From assembly GCF_019565455.1 (NCBI RefSeq), contig NZ_CP067377.1, positions 124,001 to 188,000 of the forward strand: a DNA stretch of 64,000 nucleotides, given 5' to 3'. The position numbers were made by a program, and so were the translations under genes. The DNA is from Flavobacterium oreochromis. Lineage in GTDB: Bacteria; Bacteroidota; Bacteroidia; Flavobacteriales; Flavobacteriaceae. Below the pieces are notes generated by a model. That model worked only from the letters and a program-made list of their open reading frames with translations, was not told the origin of the DNA and made no database searches. Positions 53,161 to 64,000 of the stretch are shown piece by piece; within the stretch, counting starts at the first letter, position 1; each line of letters opens with the position of its first letter.

Positions 53161-54971
53161 ATGAATACAAAAACATACATGGCTAATATTCTGAAAGAAA
53201 ACATAAACCATCTAAAATCAGCTAACTGGGAAAAGGCAAATAAAATTCTTATCCGAAAAGCTATTTCAGAGTTTACACATGAAGCCCTCATTAATCCCAT
53301 TTATAATCAGAAATTAAACAAATACTATGTAAATACCATAAACAATGAATATACCTATAGTTTTACTGCTGATTTAAAAGCTCTTAATCATTGGTACATT
53401 CCTTACGAAAGTATTACAAAACAAGATTGTAATGGGAATCACATCCCCTTGTGTCTAGTTAGCTTCATAATAGAATTTAAAGAAGTACTAGAAATCCCAA
53501 CTGATTTATTACCTACTTATCTAGAGGAAATCAATGCCACTCTTTATAGTACTGGTTATAAAATTACGAATGAAAAAATTCTTGCTAATGAACTCCCTAA
53601 CACAGATTATCAAACCATTGAACACGCTGTTACAGAAGGACATCCTTGTTTTCTAGCTAATAGTGGTAAAAATGGTTTTAGCAGTATAGATTTTAAAACC
53701 TTTTCTCCTGAAGCTAATAATTCTATTCAATTATTATGGTTAGCAGGACATAAAAGTTCTGCTCAATTTTCCTGTATTGAAACACTTAATTATGAGCAAT
53801 TACTTAAAACAGAATTAGATATTGACACTCAAATTCATTTTGAAAAAGTATTAGAATCTGAAAAAGTAAATCCTAACGAATATTATTGGTTTCCTGTACA
53901 TCCTTGGCAATGGGATAATAAACTTACTTTAATTTTCACTAATGATATTGCTCAAAAAAAGTTAATTCCTTTAGGTTTTGCTCCTGATTTTCACTCTGCA
54001 CAACAATCAATACGTACTTTTTTTAACCTTACTAATCATAATAAATATTTTACAAAAACAGCTTTATCTGTTGTTAATATGGGTTTTATGCGTGGACTTT
54101 CTCCTTACTATATGGAGAGTACTCCTATTATAACCACTTGGTTGGAAAACCTCATAAAAAACGATTCTTTTTACAATCAAAAGGATTTACTATTTTAGGC
54201 GAAATTGCCACTTTAGGTTATCGTAATATTTTATGGGAAAGCCTTGGTAGAAATATTCCTCACAATAAAATGCTAGCCACTCTTTGGAGAGAAAGTCCTA
54301 TTACAAAACTTCAAAAAAATGAAACCTGTTTTACCATGGCAGCATTACTTCATATAGACTATGAAGGAAAACCTTTTATTAAATACCTTATTGAAAAATC
54401 AGGAATTAGTGCAAAACAATGGATTAATCAGTACATACAAGCATATTTAATTCCCTTAGTGCATTGTTTTTACACACATGAACTGGTATTTATGCCTCAT
54501 GGAGAAAATCTTATTCTTGTATTAAAAAATCATCTAGTTCAACGTGTTTTTATGAAAGACATTACAGAAGAAATTATGCTTTTTAATACTAGTACCCCTT
54601 TACCTGAAAAAGCAGAAAGAATACGAATCAATCTTCCAGAAAAGTTGAAAGTATTAAGCATTCAAAATGATATTTTTCAGCATTTTTTCCGGTTCTTATC
54701 TGCTATTTTAGATCAATACAAGATCTTAAAAGAAGAAATTTTTTGGGAAATTGTTGGTTCTTCTATAGCTGAATACCAACTAAAAAACCCTCAACTTAAA
54801 ACATCCTTTTTACAACATGATCTCTTTAGTAAAACATTTGAATCCTGCTGCCTAAATCGCTTACAACTTAAAAACAATAAACAAATGCTGAATTTAGCAG
54901 ATCCTGCTTCTAGTTTACAATTTGTAGGAGCATTAGAAAATCCTATTCATCAATATAAACCAATATGGTAA
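53161..54971 (+). CDS. second NIS siderophore synthetase (IucA/IucC family), one frameshift
   Basis: 603 residues after adding one T in the run 54168-54172 (NDSFLQSKGFTILGEIATLG). It has family motifs EGHPCFLANSGKNGFSSIDF, FPVHPWQWDNKLTLIF, QSIRTFFNLTNHNKYFTKTA, RESPITKLQKNETCFTMAAL and MPHGENLILVLKNH. It is closely related to the C-terminal part of the fused protein, so acyltransferase plus synthetase exist twice, once fused and once split. Two NIS synthetases could perform successive condensations or make two products. It overlaps the MATE gene by 7 bases. Confidence 0.9.
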
Positions 54972-56368
54972 AAGATATCAAAGCAAAATTTAAATTTCTT
55001 AAACATAATGATGTAGTTGATTTTAACACCATAGGAATTAAGGAAGGAATATGGTTATTAGCCATCCCTATGATTTTAGAATTAATACTAGAATCTGTAT
55101 TTTCATTAGTAGATTTATACTTTGTAGGACATTTACCTAATAGTCAATTAGCAATCCAAATTATAGGTTTCACTGAATCTATAAATACAATTATATATTC
55201 TATTGCAGTAGGATTTAGCGTAGCTATTAGTGCTCTAATTTCTATCTCTATTGGTCAAAAAAAGGTAGATAATACAGGAAAAATCATTATACAAGCTTTA
55301 ATCATAGCCTCTATTATTTCCTTAATAATTAGCACTTTGGGCTATTTTTATGCCCCAGCTATTTTTACTTCTTTAAATGTTTCACAAGAAGCTATTAATT
55401 ATGGAATAAGCTATCCTAAAATTATTTTTAGTAACAGTCTATTTATTCTCTTATTATTTTTAATTAACGGAATATTTAGAGGTATAGGAAATCCTTTACT
55501 TGCTATGAAAAGTCTTTGGATAGCTAATGGTTTTAATCTTCTACTATGTCCGTTACTAATAAATGGTTGGATCTTTATCCCTGCCTTAGGAATTGAAGGT
55601 GCCGCTTGGGCAACCGTTAGCGGAAGAGCTATAGGTGTTCTTTATCAATTATATTGCATTCGCAAAATCAGAAAATCTATAGGCTTTCAGAAAAAACGTT
55701 TTGAATTAGATTTTCCTATTATTAAATCTATTATTAGTATTGCAACACCTGGTATATTCCAATACATATTAGCTTCATTAAGTTGGATATACTTAGCACA
55801 ACTGATTGCTAAAAATGGTGGAGAATATGGTTCCGCTGGGTTTCAAATTGCTGTTAGAGTAATGTTATTTTTCATACTCCCTATTTGGGGATTAAGTAAT
55901 GCTGTTGCTACATTAACTGGACAATATTTAGGCGCACATCATTTAACAAGAATTAAAGTTTTAACTAAAATTGTACTTAAGTACACCCTATTTCTTTGTT
56001 TAGGAATTACTTTAATAAACCTATTTTTTGCAGAAAATATTAGTTTATTTTTCACTAATGACATACAAACTATTATACGAGCAAAAGAAGCTATGAAAAT
56101 TATAAGCTTAGGTTATATAGCCTATGGAGTTTCTATGATTTTCAACAATTTATTTAATGGTGCTGGTAATACACAAATTCCCACATTAGTAAACTTCTTA
56201 GGCTTTTGGATTTTTCAAATACCTTTTGCTTATTATCTAATAGAATTTCAAAAACAAGAATATATATACGCTATTTGGCTCGTACCCATTACCGAAACCA
56301 TTCTTTGTTTTCTTTATTTTACTTTATGGAAAAAAATTACCTCAACGCAGCAGTGTAATTTCGGCTAA
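54965..56368 (+). CDS. MATE family efflux transporter, probable siderophore exporter
   Basis: 467 residues with twelve predicted membrane helices in two homologous halves. The first half begins GIWLLAIPMILELILESVFS with VDLYFVGHLPN, and the second begins SIATPGIFQYILASLSW. Fixed neighbours and the 7-base overlap with the synthetase strongly suggest export of the finished siderophore. It is the last gene of the operon. Confidence 0.9.
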   Translation: MVKDIKAKFKFLKHNDVVDFNTIGIKEGIWLLAIPMILELILESVFSLVDLYFVGHLPNSQLAIQIIGFTESINTIIYSIAVGFSVAISALISISIGQKKVDNTGKIIIQALIIASIISLIISTLGYFYAPAIFTSLNVSQEAINYGISYPKIIFSNSLFILLLFLINGIFRGIGNPLLAMKSLWIANGFNLLLCPLLINGWIFIPALGIEGAAWATVSGRAIGVLYQLYCIRKIRKSIGFQKKRFELDFPIIKSIISIATPGIFQYILASLSWIYLAQLIAKNGGEYGSAGFQIAVRVMLFFILPIWGLSNAVATLTGQYLGAHHLTRIKVLTKIVLKYTLFLCLGITLINLFFAENISLFFTNDIQTIIRAKEAMKIISLGYIAYGVSMIFNNLFNGAGNTQIPTLVNFLGFWIFQIPFAYYLIEFQKQEYIYAIWLVPITETILCFLYFTLWKKITSTQQCNFG

Positions 56369-57163
56369 TGACAACTAAATAATTTATTTTTATTACACAT
56401 TTAGAATAAAGAATGACTTTTTAAGGATTACTTCTTACCTAATAACGCTAAGATTCGTTTTTCATTTAAATTAAAACATAGTGTTATAAAAATCTTCCTT
56501 GTTTTATTATCTATTAAAGAGGTAGGAAGTAATCTATATAAAAATTTCAAATGCGGAGTCTATCTCAAAAGTAGATCATTTAATTAAAGAGGTTTCGCAC
56601 TTCGCAATGACTACACGCTGAGAAATACTAAACTTCAAATAGAGAAGCTAGTTAACTACCGTAATCCTTCAACACAACGTCATTGCGAGGCACGAAGCAA
56701 TCTAAAAAATTATGATTGCAATTATTTCCTTCGATATTTGATTATACATCAAACTACTTTTAGATTATTTCACTTTTGTGTAACTAAAGTCTAATCCATT
56801 AGATTGCTTCGTCGTGCCTCCTCGCAATGACTGAACGCTGAGAAATACTAGGTGTTAAATTGAGAATACTATTACCTAAACGCCAATTCTAAACATAAAC
56901 CATCAACGCAACGTCATTGCGAGGCACGAAGCCATCTAAAATAGTTTCATCATAGATCCTTTCATTCAGCATTTATTAAATGTCAAACTATTTTCAGCTT
57001 GTTCTGTGATAATCCAGTTCAAGATTAGTACCTCGCTACTTTAGATTGCTTCGTCGTACCTCCTCGCAATGACTAGACGCTGAGAAATACTAAACTTCAA
57101 ATAGAGAAGCTAGTTAACTACCGTAATCCTTCAACTCAAAGTCATTGCGAGGCACGAAGCAAT
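56369..57163. other. gene-free stretch with repeats after the siderophore operon
   Basis: No coding frame is supported. The first 220 bases hold an inverted repeat (56426-56440 with 56520-56534). From about 56590 the stretch consists of inverted-repeat units described under the cluster entry. No tRNA or known RNA is recognised. Confidence 0.6.
56426..56534. repeat. inverted repeat after the MATE gene
   Basis: GATTACTTCTTACCT (56426-56440) is the reverse complement of AGGTAGGAAGTAATC (56520-56534) with one mismatch and about 80 bases between. It could act as a distal terminator for the operon or be another palindromic element. Confidence 0.5.
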
Positions 57164-57522
57164 CTAAAATAAATTCAGGATATCTGTAATCTCGTCATAC
57201 AAATCCTTCCACTCCGGATTTATACTGTGTATCAAATCAATTTTAGCTTGTCTTGAACCAGCTTTGATTTGCTTTTCTCTACCTATGGCATCCCCTATCA
57301 TTTGGAATGATTCGTAATACACCAATTTATTAAGGTTATATCGTCCTGAAAAAGAATTGGGGTAACGTTTTTCTTTATGATCTAATATACGTTGGGGCAA
57401 ATTAGATGTTACCCCAACGTATAATGTTGTATTCGTATAATTGGTGATTATGTAAATAAAACCGGGTTTCATAGGTTACTCGTCTTTTATTAGATTGCTT
57501 CGTCGTACCTCCTCGCAATGAC
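57141..57522 (-). mobile_element. inverted-repeat unit enclosing a GIY-YIG gene (candidate autonomous element)
   Basis: Unit 3 of the cluster has the same two arms as its neighbours, but about 320 bases between them filled by one gene. The gene's TAG stop lies within the left arm, and its ATG is 17 bases from the right arm, so gene and arms fit tightly. That is the geometry of an autonomous member among non-autonomous copies. Mobility itself is not shown. Confidence 0.55.
57164..57472 (-). CDS. GIY-YIG nuclease family protein
   Basis: 102 residues forming a single GIY-YIG domain. The namesake strands are GFIYIITN and TLYVGVTSNL. The catalytic arginine lies in NLPQRILDHKE, and the metal-binding glutamate in AIGREKQIKAGSRQAKIDLI. 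There is no extra DNA-binding domain, as in YhbQ-like and many Bacteroidota stand-alone members. It is enclosed by inverted-repeat arms (57141-57169 and 57490-57522), which suggests a role in nicking or spreading these repeats. Its usual role in other bacteria is not settled. Confidence 0.9.
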   Translation of the reverse strand: MKPGFIYIITNYTNTTLYVGVTSNLPQRILDHKEKRYPNSFSGRYNLNKLVYYESFQMIGDAIGREKQIKAGSRQAKIDLIHSINPEWKDLYDEITDILNLF

Positions 57523-58444
57523 GACACGCTGAGAAATACTAAACTTCAAATAGAGAAGTTAGTTAACTACCGTAATCCTTCAACTCAAAGTCATTGCGAG
57601 GCACGAAGCAATCTAAAAAATTATGATTGCAATTATTTCCTTCGATATTTGATTATACATCAAACTACTTTTAGATTATTTCACTTTTGTGTAACTAAAG
57701 TCTAATCCATTAGATTGCTTCGTCGTGCCTCCTCGCAATGACTGAACGCTGAGAAATACTAGGTGTTAAATTGAGAATACTATTACCTAAACGCCAATTC
57801 TAAACATAAACCATCAACGCAACGTCATTGCGAGGCACGAAGCAATCTAAAATAGTTTCATCATAGATCCTTTCATTCAGCATTTATTAAATGTCAAACT
57901 ATTTTCAGCTTGTTCTGTGATAATCCAGTTCAAGATTAGTACCTCGCTACTTTAGATTGCTTCGTCGTACCTCCTCGCAATGACTACACGCTGAGAAATA
58001 CTAAACTTCAAATAGAGAAGTTAGTTAACTACCGTCATCCCTCAACGCAACATCATTGCGAGGCACGAAGCCATCTAAAAAATTATGATTTAAATAATTT
58101 CATTCGGTATCTGATTAGATATCAAACCTATTTTAGATTGCTTCATTTTGAGTAACCAAGACTTAGTCCATTAGATTGCTTCGTCGTACCTCCTCGCAAT
58201 GACTACACGCTGAGAAATACTAAACTTCAAATAGAGAGGTTAGTTAACTACCGTCATCCCTCAACGCAACGTCATTGCGAGGCACGAAGCAATCTAAAAT
58301 AATTTTATCAGACATCCTCTCATTCAGCATTTATGATGTACCAAACTATTTTCAGCTTTTTCAGTGATAATCCAATTCAAAACTAGTATCACGCAACTTT
58401 AGATTGCTTCGTCGTGCCTCCTCGCAATGACCTAACAAGGTAAA
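57473..58444. other. gene-free repeat DNA between GIY-YIG and mpl
   Basis: This stretch is entirely repeat units 3 (right arm) to 7 and their linkers. Type A and B units alternate A-B-A-B, and the first A-B pair is a near-exact copy of the pair at 56679-57073, shifted by 911 bases. No coding potential is seen. Confidence 0.75.
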
Positions 58445-59800
58445 TCATCCAATCAACCCTTTTACCTCTTCAAAATCTAATCCTCCGTAATTCCCTGAAC
58501 TCATTAACAATAAAGCCGAATTATCTAAATCCTGGCTAAACAAATAGTTTTTAAAATCGGCTGGATTGGTATAAATAACTAGATCATCACGTTTGAAAGA
58601 TTGCGCGATTTGCTCATAAGTTACTTCTTCTAATTTTTTAATTTTTACGGCATCAGGTGAGTAAAAAACAACTGCCACATCAGCAGCATCCAAAGCGCCT
58701 TCGTATTGTTTTAAAAATTCAGCATTCAAACTACTATACGTATGCAATTCTAAACATGCCACTAATTTTCTATCGGGATATTGTGCTTTTACCGCTTTTG
58801 TAGTCGCCGACACTTTACTAGGCGAATGTGCAAAATCTTTATAAGCCACTCTGTTAGCTGATTCAGCTATTTTTTCTAAGCGTTTAGACGCTCCTTTAAA
58901 AGTGGCAATCGCCTCATAGAATTCGGCTTCATCAACTCCCATACATTGACAAACCCACTTAGCTCCTGCTAAATTATTTAAGTTATGCGCACCGAAAACT
59001 TCAATTGGCATTGCTCCTTCTGGTGTTTCTAATAAAGTTTTTCCATTTTCAACTGCATATTCAGGCGTGAAATAAGGAATCTTGCGAATAGGATTATCCG
59101 CATTTTCAGAAACGCGTTTTACTTCAGCATCGTTTTCGTTATAGATTAAAATTCCACCGTTAGTAATCTTCTGAATAAAAATTTCAAATTGCTCTACATA
59201 GTTATCATACGTTGGAAACACATTAATATGATCCCATGCAATCCCAGAAATCAAAGCGATGTTTGGGTTGTACAAATGAAATTTTGGTCGCAAATCAATA
59301 GGTGAAGTCAAATACTCATCGCCTTCTAACACGATGAATTCATTTTCTTCTGTTAGATGCACCATGGTATCAAAACCTTCTAACAAAGCACCTACCATAT
59401 AATCCACTTTGATGTTATGATAGTTCATCACATGCAAAATCATGGAAGTAATCGTTGTCTTACCATGCGAACCCCCGATTACTACACGGGTTTTATTTTT
59501 AGATTGTTCGTATAAAAACTCGGGATACGAATAAATTTTCAACCCTAATTCCTGAGCACGTACTAACTCGGGATTATCCGCTTTGGCATGCATTCCTAAA
59601 ATGATCGCTTCAATATCCGATGTGATTCTTTCTGGAAACCAACCTAATTCGGCTGGTAATAATCCTTTGGCTTCTAATCGTGATTTAGAAGGTTCAAAAA
59701 TAGCGTCATCGCTACCTGTTACTTTGTACCCTTTGTTGTGTAATGCTAGTGCTAAATTGTGCATGGCTGCACCGCCTATGGCTATGAAGTGTGTTCTCAT
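58445..59800 (-). CDS. mpl: Mur ligase family protein, probable UDP-MurNAc:tripeptide ligase (Mpl)
   Basis: 451 residues. The N-terminal Rossmann part reads MRTHFIAIGGAAMHNLALAL with GYKVTGSDDAIFEPSKSRLE. The ATP loop is VVIGGSHGKTTITSMIL, then EGDEYLTSPIDLRPKFHLYN and the central AWDHINVFPTYDNYVEQFEI. The C-terminal domain has YKDFAHSPSKVSATTKAVKA. Mpl attaches recycled murein tripeptide to UDP-MurNAc. The KFHLYNP and FAHSPSKV features fit Mpl better than MurC, and MurC normally sits in the division cluster. It lies directly beside the repeat cluster, with R7 13 bases after its stop. Confidence 0.88.
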   Translation of the reverse strand: MRTHFIAIGGAAMHNLALALHNKGYKVTGSDDAIFEPSKSRLEAKGLLPAELGWFPERITSDIEAIILGMHAKADNPELVRAQELGLKIYSYPEFLYEQSKNKTRVVIGGSHGKTTITSMILHVMNYHNIKVDYMVGALLEGFDTMVHLTEENEFIVLEGDEYLTSPIDLRPKFHLYNPNIALISGIAWDHINVFPTYDNYVEQFEIFIQKITNGGILIYNENDAEVKRVSENADNPIRKIPYFTPEYAVENGKTLLETPEGAMPIEVFGAHNLNNLAGAKWVCQCMGVDEAEFYEAIATFKGASKRLEKIAESANRVAYKDFAHSPSKVSATTKAVKAQYPDRKLVACLELHTYSSLNAEFLKQYEGALDAADVAVVFYSPDAVKIKKLEEVTYEQIAQSFKRDDLVIYTNPADFKNYLFSQDLDNSALLLMSSGNYGGLDFEEVKGLIG

Positions 59801-59974
59801 TTGTAAGTGTAGAAATTTAACGTATTCAGAATTATAAATTCTTCAACCTATTTTATATTGTTCAAATATAAGTCATCGGTTTTTTATTAGAAATAATTTA
59901 GTTGGAAAACATACACTAAAAATAATTGGCAAGAAATAAACAACTAAGCTTATTAACATTCACTACTCAACCAA
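59801..59974. other. AT-rich spacer between mpl and the CRISPR array
   Basis: No gene or clear hairpin. It contains the mpl promoter region on the minus strand, but no box matches the consensus well. Confidence 0.5.
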
Positions 59975-60850
59975 GTTGTATTTACCCTTCAAATAATCAT
60001 TCACGAACTCCCATAAAAAACAATAGAAACAGCGTGAGTAAAATAAGAGCTTTCACAACCAGACTTTGAATGTTATGGGAATGGCTACCGTTGTATTTAC
60101 CCTTCAAAATAAGGGCTTTCACAACTCAAATTACAAGAATTTTCCCTTTGGTGGCGTTGTATTTACCCTTCAAAATAAAGGCTTTCACAACGTACTAGAA
60201 ACGGTTTGCAAAACCAAATTGTTGTATATACCCTTCAAAATAAGGGCTTTCACAACATGGCTACAACCCAACAGATGAGCCTTTTTGTTGTATTTACCCT
60301 TCAAAATAAGGGCTTTCACAACTTACAATTATTACGGCACATCTAAAACGTAGTTGTATTTACCCTTCAAAATAAGGGCTTTCACAACAATTTCTATAGT
60401 AGAAATTGGCGGGAATGAGTTGTATTTACCCTTCAAAATAAGGGCTTTCTACAACCTTGACATCATTCGCCCAAAAAATGAAACTGTTGTATTTACCCTT
60501 CAAAATAAGGGCTTTCACAACAACATTCTCGATAAAGAAGAGGAATTGCAGTTGTATTTACCCTTCAAAATAAGGGCTTTCACAACTTAAGCTAATAAAT
60601 TAGTATAATATTTAATGTTGTATTTACCCTTCAAAATAAGGGCTTTCACAACTCACTAGTTAAATATATGCGTTCCTTATTAGTTGTATTTACCCTTCAA
60701 AATAAGGGCTTTCACAACTATCAGCTCCAATTTTTGTTGACAACGCAGGTTGTATTTACCCTTCAAAATAAGGGCTTTCACAACAATTAAACCATTAGTA
60801 AACAACACAATTAAGTTGTATTTACCCTTCAAAATAAGGGCTTTCACAAC
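59975..60850 (-). CRISPR. type VI-B CRISPR array, 12 good repeats plus degenerate distal end
   Basis: Repeats of 36 bases start at 60090, 60156, 60221, 60287, 60353, 60419, 60486, 60551, 60617, 60683, 60749 and 60815, with spacers of 29-30 bases. On the minus strand the repeat begins GTTGTGAAAGCCCTTATTTT and ends GAAGGGTAAATACAAC. GTTGT/ACAAC and CCCTT/AAGGG can pair, as in Cas13b repeats. Variants: one base changed at 60156 and 60221, and a 37-base copy with an extra T at 60419. At the low end, 59975-60008 and about 60024-60059 are badly degenerated copies, marking the leader-distal end. Transcription is therefore inferred to run on the minus strand, with cas13b upstream. Confidence 0.96.
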
Positions 60851-61081: not shown

Positions 61082-64000
61082 TTAAACTCTTTTTGCTTTT
61101 GCAAATAAGTCATCATGAAGCGTATCTTTTAACGCAGTCAATACCTCACGTATTCTTTTTATAGGTATGTCATAAAAAGTAACTAATGAAGAAACATCAA
61201 TATTGGCATTAACTATTTCTTCTTCAATAAATTTTTCTTCTATTTCTATTAATTTTTTCACATAAGAAACTTCTTTTGGGAAATTAAAATGATAAACATT
61301 ATTTCTATAATTTCTTCCTTCTAGATCTTCTAATTCATAGTTTACAGACAAATTGGAAAATTTGGCAAAACTGATATAAAATTGATCGAATGGAGAAGTA
61401 GGGGTAAAGTTTTGCTTCTCCTCTTTCAGTAGGGTAGTGCCGTTTTCTTCTTTTAGACAATAATACCCCTCCAATTCCATTAAAACTCTAGAAAATTTAT
61501 TTGAAGTAGTAAGTAGATAGCTTTCTACTTTTTTAAATTCATCAAAGTTTATTTTATTATTGTTCAATAATTTATTAGCTATGCCAATCATAGATTTTGA
61601 CGTTTTTAATTGAATAGGATCTTGATCGTATTCCTCTTTTATCATTTTTAGATAAACAGGAAGATTTTCAAAAAAGGATTCGTTGTAAACTTTTTCTTGT
61701 TCTTTTTGAATACTAAAATACGTTCGAAAGATACTAGATGTTTAAAAGGGACTTCAATATCGTATAAAATAGTTGAATCAGTTTTTTTACTTACTGGTAT
61801 AGTTATCGATTTTTGAAGTATAGCATTGATACTGTTTTTAGTTATGGTTATATGTTCTTGTTTTATATAAGTGCAGGCAATTTCATATAAAAAACAATCT
61901 TCAAGCTTTGCTTTAAGTAATTTTTTAGTTAAATAGCGATAGCTTTTTTGTTCTTCATTATTTAATTCTATAGGATTATACCACTTCTCATTTAAGTATT
62001 TTTCGTTTTTAACTAAAGTGGTAAATATTAGTTTGCCATTTTCTACTTTAAAGTGATAATTAGGTCTGCTCTTTAAAAAATCTAGAAATTGAGAAAGATT
62101 TATAACCAACATAAATTGTGGTATTTGTGCATTTTTTAGTGCTTTAAAATCTTTTATAAAGGCATAGTTTTCTAATTTGTAGCTATCTTCTTTAAATGGA
62201 GGTGGTGTTGTTAACCAATGGGTGTATTTTTCTTTTGTTTTGTCATACAATTGCTCAAAACTATTGGCATTGTTAAACAATTGTGCAAATTCTTGATTCC
62301 TAAAAAAATCTTTAGCATCTAACAGAATTTTTAAATTCTCTTTATAATGTGGTAAATCAAATGCAAATAAAAAACGACTAAAATCATTAAATTCTTCTCT
62401 TGTGATATGAAAATGTTTATGATGATTTGTTGAATCTTCTCCTTTGTTCTCCTTATAAATGGCTTTGAAATACATTAGGTTCCAAGCCTTTTTCATAAAA
62501 CGAAGTTTAAACTGCTTGCCTTTGTTCTTTTTTTCAAAATCTGCTAAAACACCATTTTCTTTTGCTAGTTCCAGTAGTCTTTTATAACGTTTTTCTTGTT
62601 GCTGGGTTTCTAACAAAAGTTTTTCGAGTGTATTATTATTGCCCTTTCGGTTTTCAGCATATACATTTTGCAATAATCGTTTAGGCAGGTATTTTGACAA
62701 CGTATTTTTATCTTCCTTTTGAAAGGTGTTAGTTTCTATTAATTGTATTTGTTTATCAAAATTGCTTTTGTAGATATTAAAATAATCTAGTAAAACATTT
62801 TTTCCTTTGCCTTCAATATTGGGTAGCCTTTTATCATTAAGTAGATAAAAAGCATTTTCTAAAAAGTAGATGATTAAGTTTTTAGAAATAGGAATCAATA
62901 ATGTTTCAGTTGATGTTTTAATTTTTATGCTTATTGCATTGTTTTCAAATACAAATGGATTGTCCCAAGTTTTTACGGTATCATAAGCTACAAAATCAAC
63001 CAACCTGCCGTGATGGTATTTTAGTTTGTCAAATTCCTTTTTAGTTAAGCTAATGTTTTTATGCTTTTTTAATTCTTCATTTTCTTCTGTGGTTTGTGTA
63101 GCATAACATTTAAACAGGGCATCCTTGCCAAAATAATTTTGGGAAGCTAAAAAATGAGTAGCAAATTCTAAAAATCGATCTTGGTTTCTGCCATTAGAAA
63201 TTAAAAAAGTATTTTCTTTTATTCTCTTTTCCAGTTTTTCTGTAGTAGGTGCTTTTTTATTAACACCTTCATCAAATTTTCTGATTATGGATTCATTTTC
63301 ATTCTTATCCTTCTCTAATTTTTCTTTCTTTTTAAAATTGATAGTTGGATTAGAAATCTCTTTTTCAATAATTCAACTTTTGTTTTTGCATCTTGTATTT
63401 TTTTTGGTATTAAAAGTAAATCATCAAAATTTTGTCTTTTATTTCCGTCCAAATTAAACTTTCTATTATACTTAACTAATAAATGTTTGCAATAATATAC
63501 AAATTCATTTTTACATTGAAGGCTATTTAATGTTTCTTCTTTAAAAGTATCAATTTTATTTTGCTCCTTGCTATCACTTTTAGTAAGATAGGTTTTAACT
63601 AACTCTTTTTCAAAAATAATCTCTACTAGGGCATTTGTCATTTTAGGAAACATAATACCTGTTTTGTTTTCTGGTAGATAAGGAACAGCTTTTTTAGCAT
63701 TTTCTTCTACTTTTAAACTAGCAAATTTCATTTCACTATTCCAAGCTGTAGGGTATTTGTCAAGATACTGTATTATATCACGAAATTTAGTTAACTGTTT
63801 TTCATCATTATCAATATCCTGACTGCTTGGTTTTTTAGAGAAAAAGGTGATAATCGTAGGCTTCTTTCTTTCTTCTTGTGTTTTCGTTTTTTTAAATCCT
63901 TGAATTTTTGAAACTAGTTTACTGGCTTCATCTTTGTACAAAAACAGAGAAACAATAAATAGGGTAGCATTATAGGATAGATACGTTCCTTTTGTAATAG
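61082..64000 (-). CDS. cas13b: CRISPR-associated RNA-guided RNase Cas13b (C-terminal ~970 codons), two frameshifts
   Basis: The effector of type VI-B systems, which cuts target RNA guided by crRNA. The visible part starts inside the protein (FLYKDEASKLVSKIQGFK near 63950) and ends at 61082. The second HEPN site is intact: RNNVYH at 61289-61305, the R-x4-H form. The first HEPN site lies beyond the window. The frame is broken at T run 63361-63365 and T run 61691-61695. One base added at each gives a continuous frame through EFATHFLASQNYFGKDALFK and ESFFENLPVYLKMIKEEYD. Full Cas13b proteins are 1100-1230 residues, so about 130-250 are missing. csx27 or csx28, if present, would lie outside the window. 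Confidence 0.9.

Follow-up and report, generated by a model that had tools for sequence, protein, structure and literature searches.

In REP-RAYT systems (REPtrons, REPINs) one small nuclease gene, coding for a Y1 HUH enzyme (TnpA-REP, RAYT), is flanked by inverted palindromic repeats that carry a GTAG tag (PMC3733652). A further group of palindromes, the CGTC-tagged REPs, was described by Di Nocera in 2013. According to the part of that article used here, S. meliloti and A. lipoferum are among the named hosts, the group includes RPE-4 and RPE-6 of Rickettsia as well as dRS3 of Neisseria, and such repeats are present in at least five phyla (PMC3733652). They were reported without an associated or dedicated transposase gene; the guesses offered in the same part of the article were an extinct system or a broad range of transposases as mobilisers. 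GIY-YIG enzymes are unmentioned in this text ('giy', 0 occurrences). GIY-YIG domains are typical of homing endonucleases, as stated in the part of PMC1564403 used here. A search of the open-licence PMC literature returned no paper among the matches listed that links GIY-YIG genes to REPs.

We analyzed a window of 64,000 nucleotides from Flavobacterium oreochromis (contig NZ_CP067377.1, positions 124,001 to 188,000), to which all coordinates without a locus prefix refer. With slightly better than even confidence we read positions 57141-57522 as a copy of a minimal mobile element, in which a stand-alone GIY-YIG nuclease gene lies between inverted GTC-tagged REPs and its enzyme would act on the repeat hairpins.

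The repeat array and its GIY-YIG gene

Seven inverted-repeat units with common arms span positions 56679-58431. The array lies between a gene that we take, from its sequence, to code for a MATE-type transporter (54965-56368) and a gene named on the same footing as presumably mpl (58445-59800). The features are:

57141..57522, 382 bp: GIY unit, consisting of arm, gene and arm (arm comparison)
57141..57165, plus strand: left arm of the GIY unit, a GTC-tagged repeat that overlaps the stop codon of the gene (arm comparison, folding)
57491..57522, minus strand: right arm of the GIY unit, an inverted copy of the repeat (arm comparison, folding)
57164..57472, minus strand: GIY-YIG nuclease gene, 102 aa, sole gene of its unit (ORF, Pfam PF01541 with 52.6 bits, conserved active-site residues)
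56679..56831, 153 bp: gene-free unit A1 (arms, shuffles, unit alignment)
56913..57073, 161 bp: gene-free unit B1, with a putative weak remnant of the 3' end of the gene (arms, shuffles, DNA profile)
57590..57742: gene-free unit A2, 100% like A1 (arms, unit alignment)
57824..57984: gene-free unit B2, 99% like B1 (arms, unit alignment)
58052..58203: gene-free unit C, 87% like A, its start exactly 911 bp past that of the GIY unit (unit alignment)
58271..58431: gene-free unit D, 89% like B (unit alignment)

The left arms start and the right arms (32 nt) end at the unit boundaries given above. Over 20 nt, six of the seven left arms are identical and the arm at 58052 has one difference; four of the right arms are identical and three have one difference. 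A (C)GTC tag precedes a stem beginning A-T or A-C in six of the seven left arms (GTCATTGC), and most relatives show the same arrangement. The six gene-free units have a length of 152-161 bp. Two spacers of 81 nt are identical and four of 67 nt are 90-99% alike. Since the spacers are repeated along with the units, the array is tandem and was enlarged by tandem duplication, which rules out seven separate insertions.

Units A1, B1 and C, arm-trimmed before folding in order to fit the tool, each beat 200 of 200 shuffles (z = -5.6, -4.4 and -4.8). Single window arms folded no better than shuffles (z = -0.6 and 0.0). A tagged hairpin within one arm was also considered and rejected, because its 5-bp stem was matched by 52 and 76 of 200 shuffles, whereas the paired units beat them. 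The seven units with shared arms reported in a first-pass annotation of the window are thus borne out. The same annotation called the repeat a spreading one, which holds only weakly in this genome: the 18-nt arm core, at up to two mismatches, has 13 sites in the 3.54-Mb single-contig genome, seven of them in the array and six elsewhere, and a search of the genome with the whole unit found no copy outside the array. Two arm-like sites, at about 740.8 kb and 757.8 kb of this genome (L010, L011; G000:C1), are embedded in long stretches that are nearly identical and oppositely oriented.

Types A and B had further been proposed as non-autonomous copies. When the units were compared with the GIY gene, shuffled sequences did as well in 0 of 500 cases for B1, 2 for B2, 1 for C and 16 for D, and a DNA profile placed B1 and B2 at ranks 1 and 2 among 606 sequences (6 real, 600 shuffled), at -0.5 bits. 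This suggests that units B and C may derive from the gene and argues more weakly for D. The A units gave no such signal, about half of the shuffles being as good (251 of 500 for A1, 239 of 500 for A2).

The GIY unit contains a single ORF of at least 60 aa. Its stop codon (the complement of CTA, 57164-57166) lies inside the left arm and its start codon is 17-18 nt away from the right arm, in agreement with the earlier description of a unit that encloses only this gene and leaves 17 bases at the start. The protein consists of the GIY-YIG domain alone (52.6 bits against a Pfam cut-off of 22.6), without a DNA-binding extension, and its closest named relatives are mostly from Flavobacterium. In an alignment of 139 proteins, the residues Y7, Y18, R28, E66 and N85 are kept in 137-139 sequences, Asn85 being invariant (139/139). 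In-frame stops occur in 9 of 147 gene copies, which were excluded from the alignment rather than mended. Values of dN/dS between 0.02 and 0.19 indicate purifying selection.

The nearest solved relatives by sequence belong to UPF0213, and a PDB search with the single sequence gave no match at E 1. Structure prediction was poor from the single sequence (pLDDT 46) and good from 50 aligned sequences (pLDDT 94). The predicted fold is closest to the branched-DNA nuclease Slx1, with a match covering 96-98 of 101 residues. A second GIY-YIG relative in the genome (L002, G000:C1:2715818-2716108) is 39% identical and has one in-frame stop. A GTC-tagged hairpin of another type (GTCATTTCGAC) lies within 200 bp of it, and no strong arm pair was found there (score 13).

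Three further features of the window may be mentioned. Positions 59962-60850 hold a CRISPR-like array whose repeats, about 36 nt long, recur every 65-67 bp. Minus-strand ORFs in separate frames at 61082-63998 look like pieces of a large, possibly broken effector, presumably Cas13b-like. The ORFs 53161-54198 and 54138-54971 overlap in different frames and look like one gene with a frameshift, which we assume to code for a siderophore synthetase of the IucA/IucC kind.

Paired repeats around GIY-YIG genes in other genomes

Relatives of the GIY gene were gathered by protein similarity and thus blind to their flanks. The loci comprised 80 in named genomes, 30 from the same family or genome (including L002) and 14 plasmid-collection records, the latter picked for organism variety from 32 with a GIY match. 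Three of the 80 named loci were dropped for a flank shorter than 100 nt, leaving 77 testable. The upstream flank matched the reverse complement of the downstream flank beyond 200 shuffles in 53 of these 77. Arms with a score of at least 16 surrounded the gene in 49/77 named, 4/30 family and 12/14 plasmid loci. The respective counts were 0/100, 1/11 and 0/2 for neighboring-ORF controls, 0/924, 1/360 and 0/168 for shuffles, and 273/924, 24/360 and 20/168 for flanks mispaired between loci. The two arms of one gene therefore match each other more often than arms of different loci do. The threshold of 16 was our choice, and a slightly different downstream window gave 48 named loci rather than 49. 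In 16 of the 48 named loci with strong arms, as in the window, neither arm is more than 30 nt away from the gene.

A second test left the stem sequence free and asked for GTC followed by a 5-bp stem beginning A-Y and a loop of 3-22 nt. Such a tagged hairpin was present within 200 bp in 89 of 121 GIY loci (60/77 named, 18/30 family, 11/14 plasmid), as compared to 8 of 129 neighboring-ORF controls and 96 of 2420 shuffles. Hairpins with outward tags on both sides were found at 42/121 GIY loci and at 0/129 controls. The density of tagged hairpins was 3.94 per kb within 250 bp of the gene versus 0.03-0.29 farther out. In the more distant family set, strong arms were confined to the 4 of 30 loci given above and 12 of 30 had no tagged hairpin. 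GIY genes and paired repeats are associated in several phyla.

CGTC-type REPs stand on both sides of the gene in 9 of 12 proteobacterial loci of the plasmid collection. The flanking repeats are CGTCATCCTCGGGCTTGACCCGAGGATCCA or nearly so in Rhizobium CIAT894, Neorhizobium, Shinella and S. meliloti, CGTCATCCCCGCGAAGGCGGGGATCCA in Azospirillum, CGTCATTCCCGCGCAGGCGGGAATC in Neisseria and Aeromonas, and of the GTCACCCCGGG and CGTCGCCCCG types in Sphingobium and Novosphingobium. The flanks of the R. tumorigenes (L136) and Photobacterium (L138) genes contain no matched arms, the hairpin in Sinorhizobium K101 (L133) is of another kind, and in Planktothrix (L126) and Spirosoma (L130) the inverted repeats are located farther from it. 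The S. meliloti flank, with a 9-bp stem, a 5-nt loop and CCA, falls within the dimensions of CGTC REPs (8-9 bp, 4-5 nt, CCA); the window arm has a 5-bp stem, a 10-nt loop and the tail TCT. Judged by its sequence, the window arm is best classed as a relative and not a strict member of the CGTC-tagged REPs, because tag and inverted pairing are common to both while stem and loop lengths differ.

Some loci are of interest in their own right. In a rumen bacterium (L088:582-866) the repeat around the GIY gene is a different one; it begins TGTCATTCAGAGGG, and its arms are 20 and 0 nt distant from the gene. The gene on the Planktothrix plasmid (L126:1456-1740) lies between the gene of a type IIL MmeI-like restriction enzyme and DISARM drmA. 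Plasmid records annotate such proteins as 'GIY-YIG nuclease family protein' or 'excinuclease ABC subunit C'.

Subfamily specificity, filled and empty sites

Among 101 genomes of the genus, the arm core GTCWTTGCGAGG has a median count of 15 in the 22 genomes with the close GIY subfamily, where one element itself supplies about two copies. The median is 1 in 41 genomes with other GIY types only and likewise 1 in 38 without GIY (p = 1.7e-8). All 22 close-subfamily genomes contain at least two arm cores; the gene is broken or partial in G138 and G150 and has one stop in G136. The first-pass annotation had named equal abundance of the repeat in genomes that lack the nuclease as evidence against a link. 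The medians show no such equality, but 34 arm cores occur in G218 and 17 in G157, both without a GIY match at E 1e-10, and 36, 25 and 24 in G133, G175 and G143, which have other GIY types only.

Within the genus, TTGCG arms were found at 18 of 18 close-subfamily loci and at 0 of 8 loci of other types (p = 6e-7; the broken L158 is excluded, and two of the eight have no hairpin at all). When repeat classes are placed on a tree of the 139 proteins, 7 changes of class are needed, versus 25 with shuffled labels, a comparison confounded by taxonomy, though less so within the genus. L109, L110, L112 and genus loci shorter than 3200 bases were excluded from the subfamily and repeat-type count, the protein alignment and the fragment screen.

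A comparison of empty and filled sites, also suggested by the first-pass annotation, revealed both kinds between species. In Azospirillum lipoferum 4B the element lies between sufB and sufC. The same site is empty, with no repeat seen, in A. ramasamyi, A. oryzae, A. sp. B510 and A. thermophilum. S. meliloti Ak57 (L129) carries the complete element and also a derivative in which both repeats and the final 81 nt of the gene are preserved; at the site of this derivative, Sinorhizobium K101 has one palindrome equal to the outer halves of both repeats. The flanks of the empty sites in both genera are too diverged for a target duplication to be read. In L121, two derivatives correspond to the element after a single internal deletion that spared the repeats at both ends. 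L029 contains two tandem copies of the 3' end of the gene with one repeat, and S. medicae (L260) has retained the left half. In total, fragments or near-full extra copies were detected within the fetched stretch at 5 of 147 loci. The derivatives of L121 and of the window were found in tandem only: the L121 derivative, searched in its own genome, is not dispersed and has only repeat-sized matches elsewhere, and no genome was seen to contain near-identical GIY copies at scattered positions.

The main rival to the element reading is homing. According to this explanation the gene codes for a free-standing homing nuclease that cuts gene-free REP palindromes and enters them through gene conversion, while the repeats spread by other means. 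The correlation of gene and repeat would equally follow if the nuclease merely homes into repeats, the subfamily specificity then being target specificity, and homing is the typical role of this domain. Its best evidence is the single palindrome of K101, which is expected if an insert had split a repeat. The best counter-evidence is the absence of any repeat at the empty Azospirillum sites. The missing DNA-binding extension also speaks against homing. The low arm-core counts in most genomes without the close subfamily do so as well, but are not decisive, since a homing gene, too, would persist only in genomes that offer targets. Altogether we regard homing as unlikely, though it deserves serious attention.

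Alternatively, the protein could serve ordinary DNA repair as a nuclease of the UPF0213/Slx1 kind, with transcription terminators or mRNA stabilizers standing beside its gene by chance. The structural relatives, the strong purifying selection and a fixed gene position in one Flavobacterium group are in line with this. The first-pass annotation had counted homologues in fixed loci without arms against its proposal; the group is indeed fixed, yet 10 of its 11 loci examined have arms beyond shuffles. A housekeeping role is improbable in view of the patchy presence of the gene (54 of 120 family genomes, 63 of 101 genus genomes), the copies with in-frame stops, the empty orthologous sites, and inverted repeats on both sides far above the level at neighboring ORFs. 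Moreover, a neighboring gene is common to only 119 of 3240 locus pairs, many of them from the fixed group.

The position next to mpl was considered separately. Downstream (3') of mpl, neither a GIY gene nor the window repeat was present in 28 of 29 relatives examined (30 of 95 mpl loci sampled); in the remaining one, G187, a GIY gene belonging to another subfamily is found there. By coordinates, such genes lie within about 230 bp 3' of mpl, on the 58432-58445 side, in G132, G175, G181 and G187. Since GIY genes occur there in further genomes, the site appears to be used repeatedly or to be an old position. L016 and L017 are the only ones of the 80 named loci that share a neighboring gene with the window, and they have one GIY unit and fewer repeats. 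L017:1-5306 is filed under a Limnohabitans MAG; its GIY gene is 88% and two neighbors are 76-79% identical to the Flavobacterium window, and it is probably a misbinned contig.

As a control we analyzed Y1 transposase genes, which are present in 68 of the 101 genus genomes; their correlation with the arm core is weak (p = 0.007; p = 0.016 without the close GIY subfamily). Of 26 Y1 loci, 4 had any tagged hairpin, 0 had hairpins on both sides, 0 had the arm core and 11 had inverted flanks of their own, so the method can see RAYT-type ends. In the same tests, the corresponding numbers among 28 GIY loci from the genus were 24, 14, 18 and 21 (4 of 30 Y1 loci and 1 of 29 GIY loci were too short and were dropped). 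Seven of the 22 close-subfamily genomes have no Y1 match, and five of these still contain 5 to 18 arm cores. The weak correlation stands, but a GIY gene merely carried by or inserted into repeats that a Y1 (RAYT-type) or other transposase mobilizes is the least probable explanation, and a very doubtful one, given the 0/26 paired hairpins and the fact that it would not put one gene family beside different repeats in distant phyla.

Proposed mechanism and comparison with known systems

We return to the reading of positions 57141-57522 as a mobile element. It is supported by the association in several phyla, the subfamily specificity within the genus, orthologous sites that are filled in some species and empty in others, deletion derivatives with both ends and the conserved nuclease. 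These findings also lend partial support to the dedicated mobilizing or maintaining enzyme of the first-pass annotation, for which repeat-flanked GIY genes had been the proposed check. Tandem growth without dispersal of a whole unit (window) or of the L121 derivative, the scarcity of strong arms in the distant family set, core-rich genomes without GIY such as G218 and G157, and the weak Y1 correlation stand against it. Our confidence in the element is just above the halfway mark, lowered slightly because the derivatives and units are in tandem only.

Based on these results we infer mobilization by the following mechanism. The repeat pair may be extruded to form a hairpin or a cruciform, perhaps where DNA is single-stranded at a replication fork, and would be recognized by the enzyme, whose predicted fold is Slx1-like. 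The enzyme would then nick near the base of the extruded hairpin. Starting from the nick, repair or template switching could produce a further copy of the element or just of a repeat pair, either in tandem or at another locus. Pairs that lack the gene would be non-autonomous derivatives on which the same enzyme acts in trans, much as transposases act on MITEs, and the window array would be one such locus grown by tandem duplication.

A broader claim, which we hold with marginally less than even confidence, is that such elements form their own class of bacterial mobile DNA, each with a single gene whose product, a structure-specific GIY-YIG nuclease, recognizes and propagates palindromes with a GTC/CGTC tag. 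The nuclease would supply the missing partner of the CGTC REPs (e.g. Neisseria dRS3) and would be an independent enzymatic counterpart of RAYTs, occurring in Bacteroidota and Pseudomonadota, with single loci in Chloroflexota and Melainabacteria. A conserved nuclease between CGTC-type repeats in distant groups is a named candidate for their mobilizer and can be tested directly by biochemistry. If the claim is true, repeat systems built on palindromes have at least two origins, with nucleases that are unrelated to each other (HUH Y1 and GIY-YIG), and proteins with the two annotations quoted above for the plasmid records would be enzymes of a selfish element. Demonstrated GIY-YIG mobilization would deserve a class of its own.

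The locus resembles known systems to different degrees. Insertion sequences and MITEs share the inverted ends and the internal deletion derivatives (L121, L129); in contrast, our element has no known transposase domain, no target duplication was read and its derivatives are in tandem only. Slx1 and UPF0213 appear similar in predicted fold over the 96-98 residues, and UPF0213 also as a stand-alone domain. The genes described here differ in being patchy and repeat-flanked, and their invariant Asn85 is absent from the Slx1 group according to the part of PMC1564403 used here. GIY-YIG homing endonucleases (I-TevI and free-standing kin) have the same catalytic domain, with the active-site residues kept, and their genes are likewise gained and lost at sites, but they differ from our case, in which there is no DNA-binding extension and there are inverted-repeat flanks and gene-free derivatives with both repeat ends. 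The CGTC REPs share tag, stem, loop and often the CCA tail with the repeats at the nine proteobacterial loci, where inverted pairs predominate; the stem and loop of the window arm place it outside the four families given in the part of PMC3733652 used here. As in REP-RAYT systems, one small nuclease gene is flanked by inverted palindromic repeats, gene-free repeat pairs exist elsewhere in the genome and the enzyme type tracks the repeat type. The gene of the window is, like that of a REPtron, flanked by inverted palindromic repeats that are also found without it, but the enzyme between the repeats is of the GIY-YIG type (PF01541) instead of a Y1 HUH (RAYT) transposase, and the repeats are tagged with GTC/CGTC instead of GTAG.
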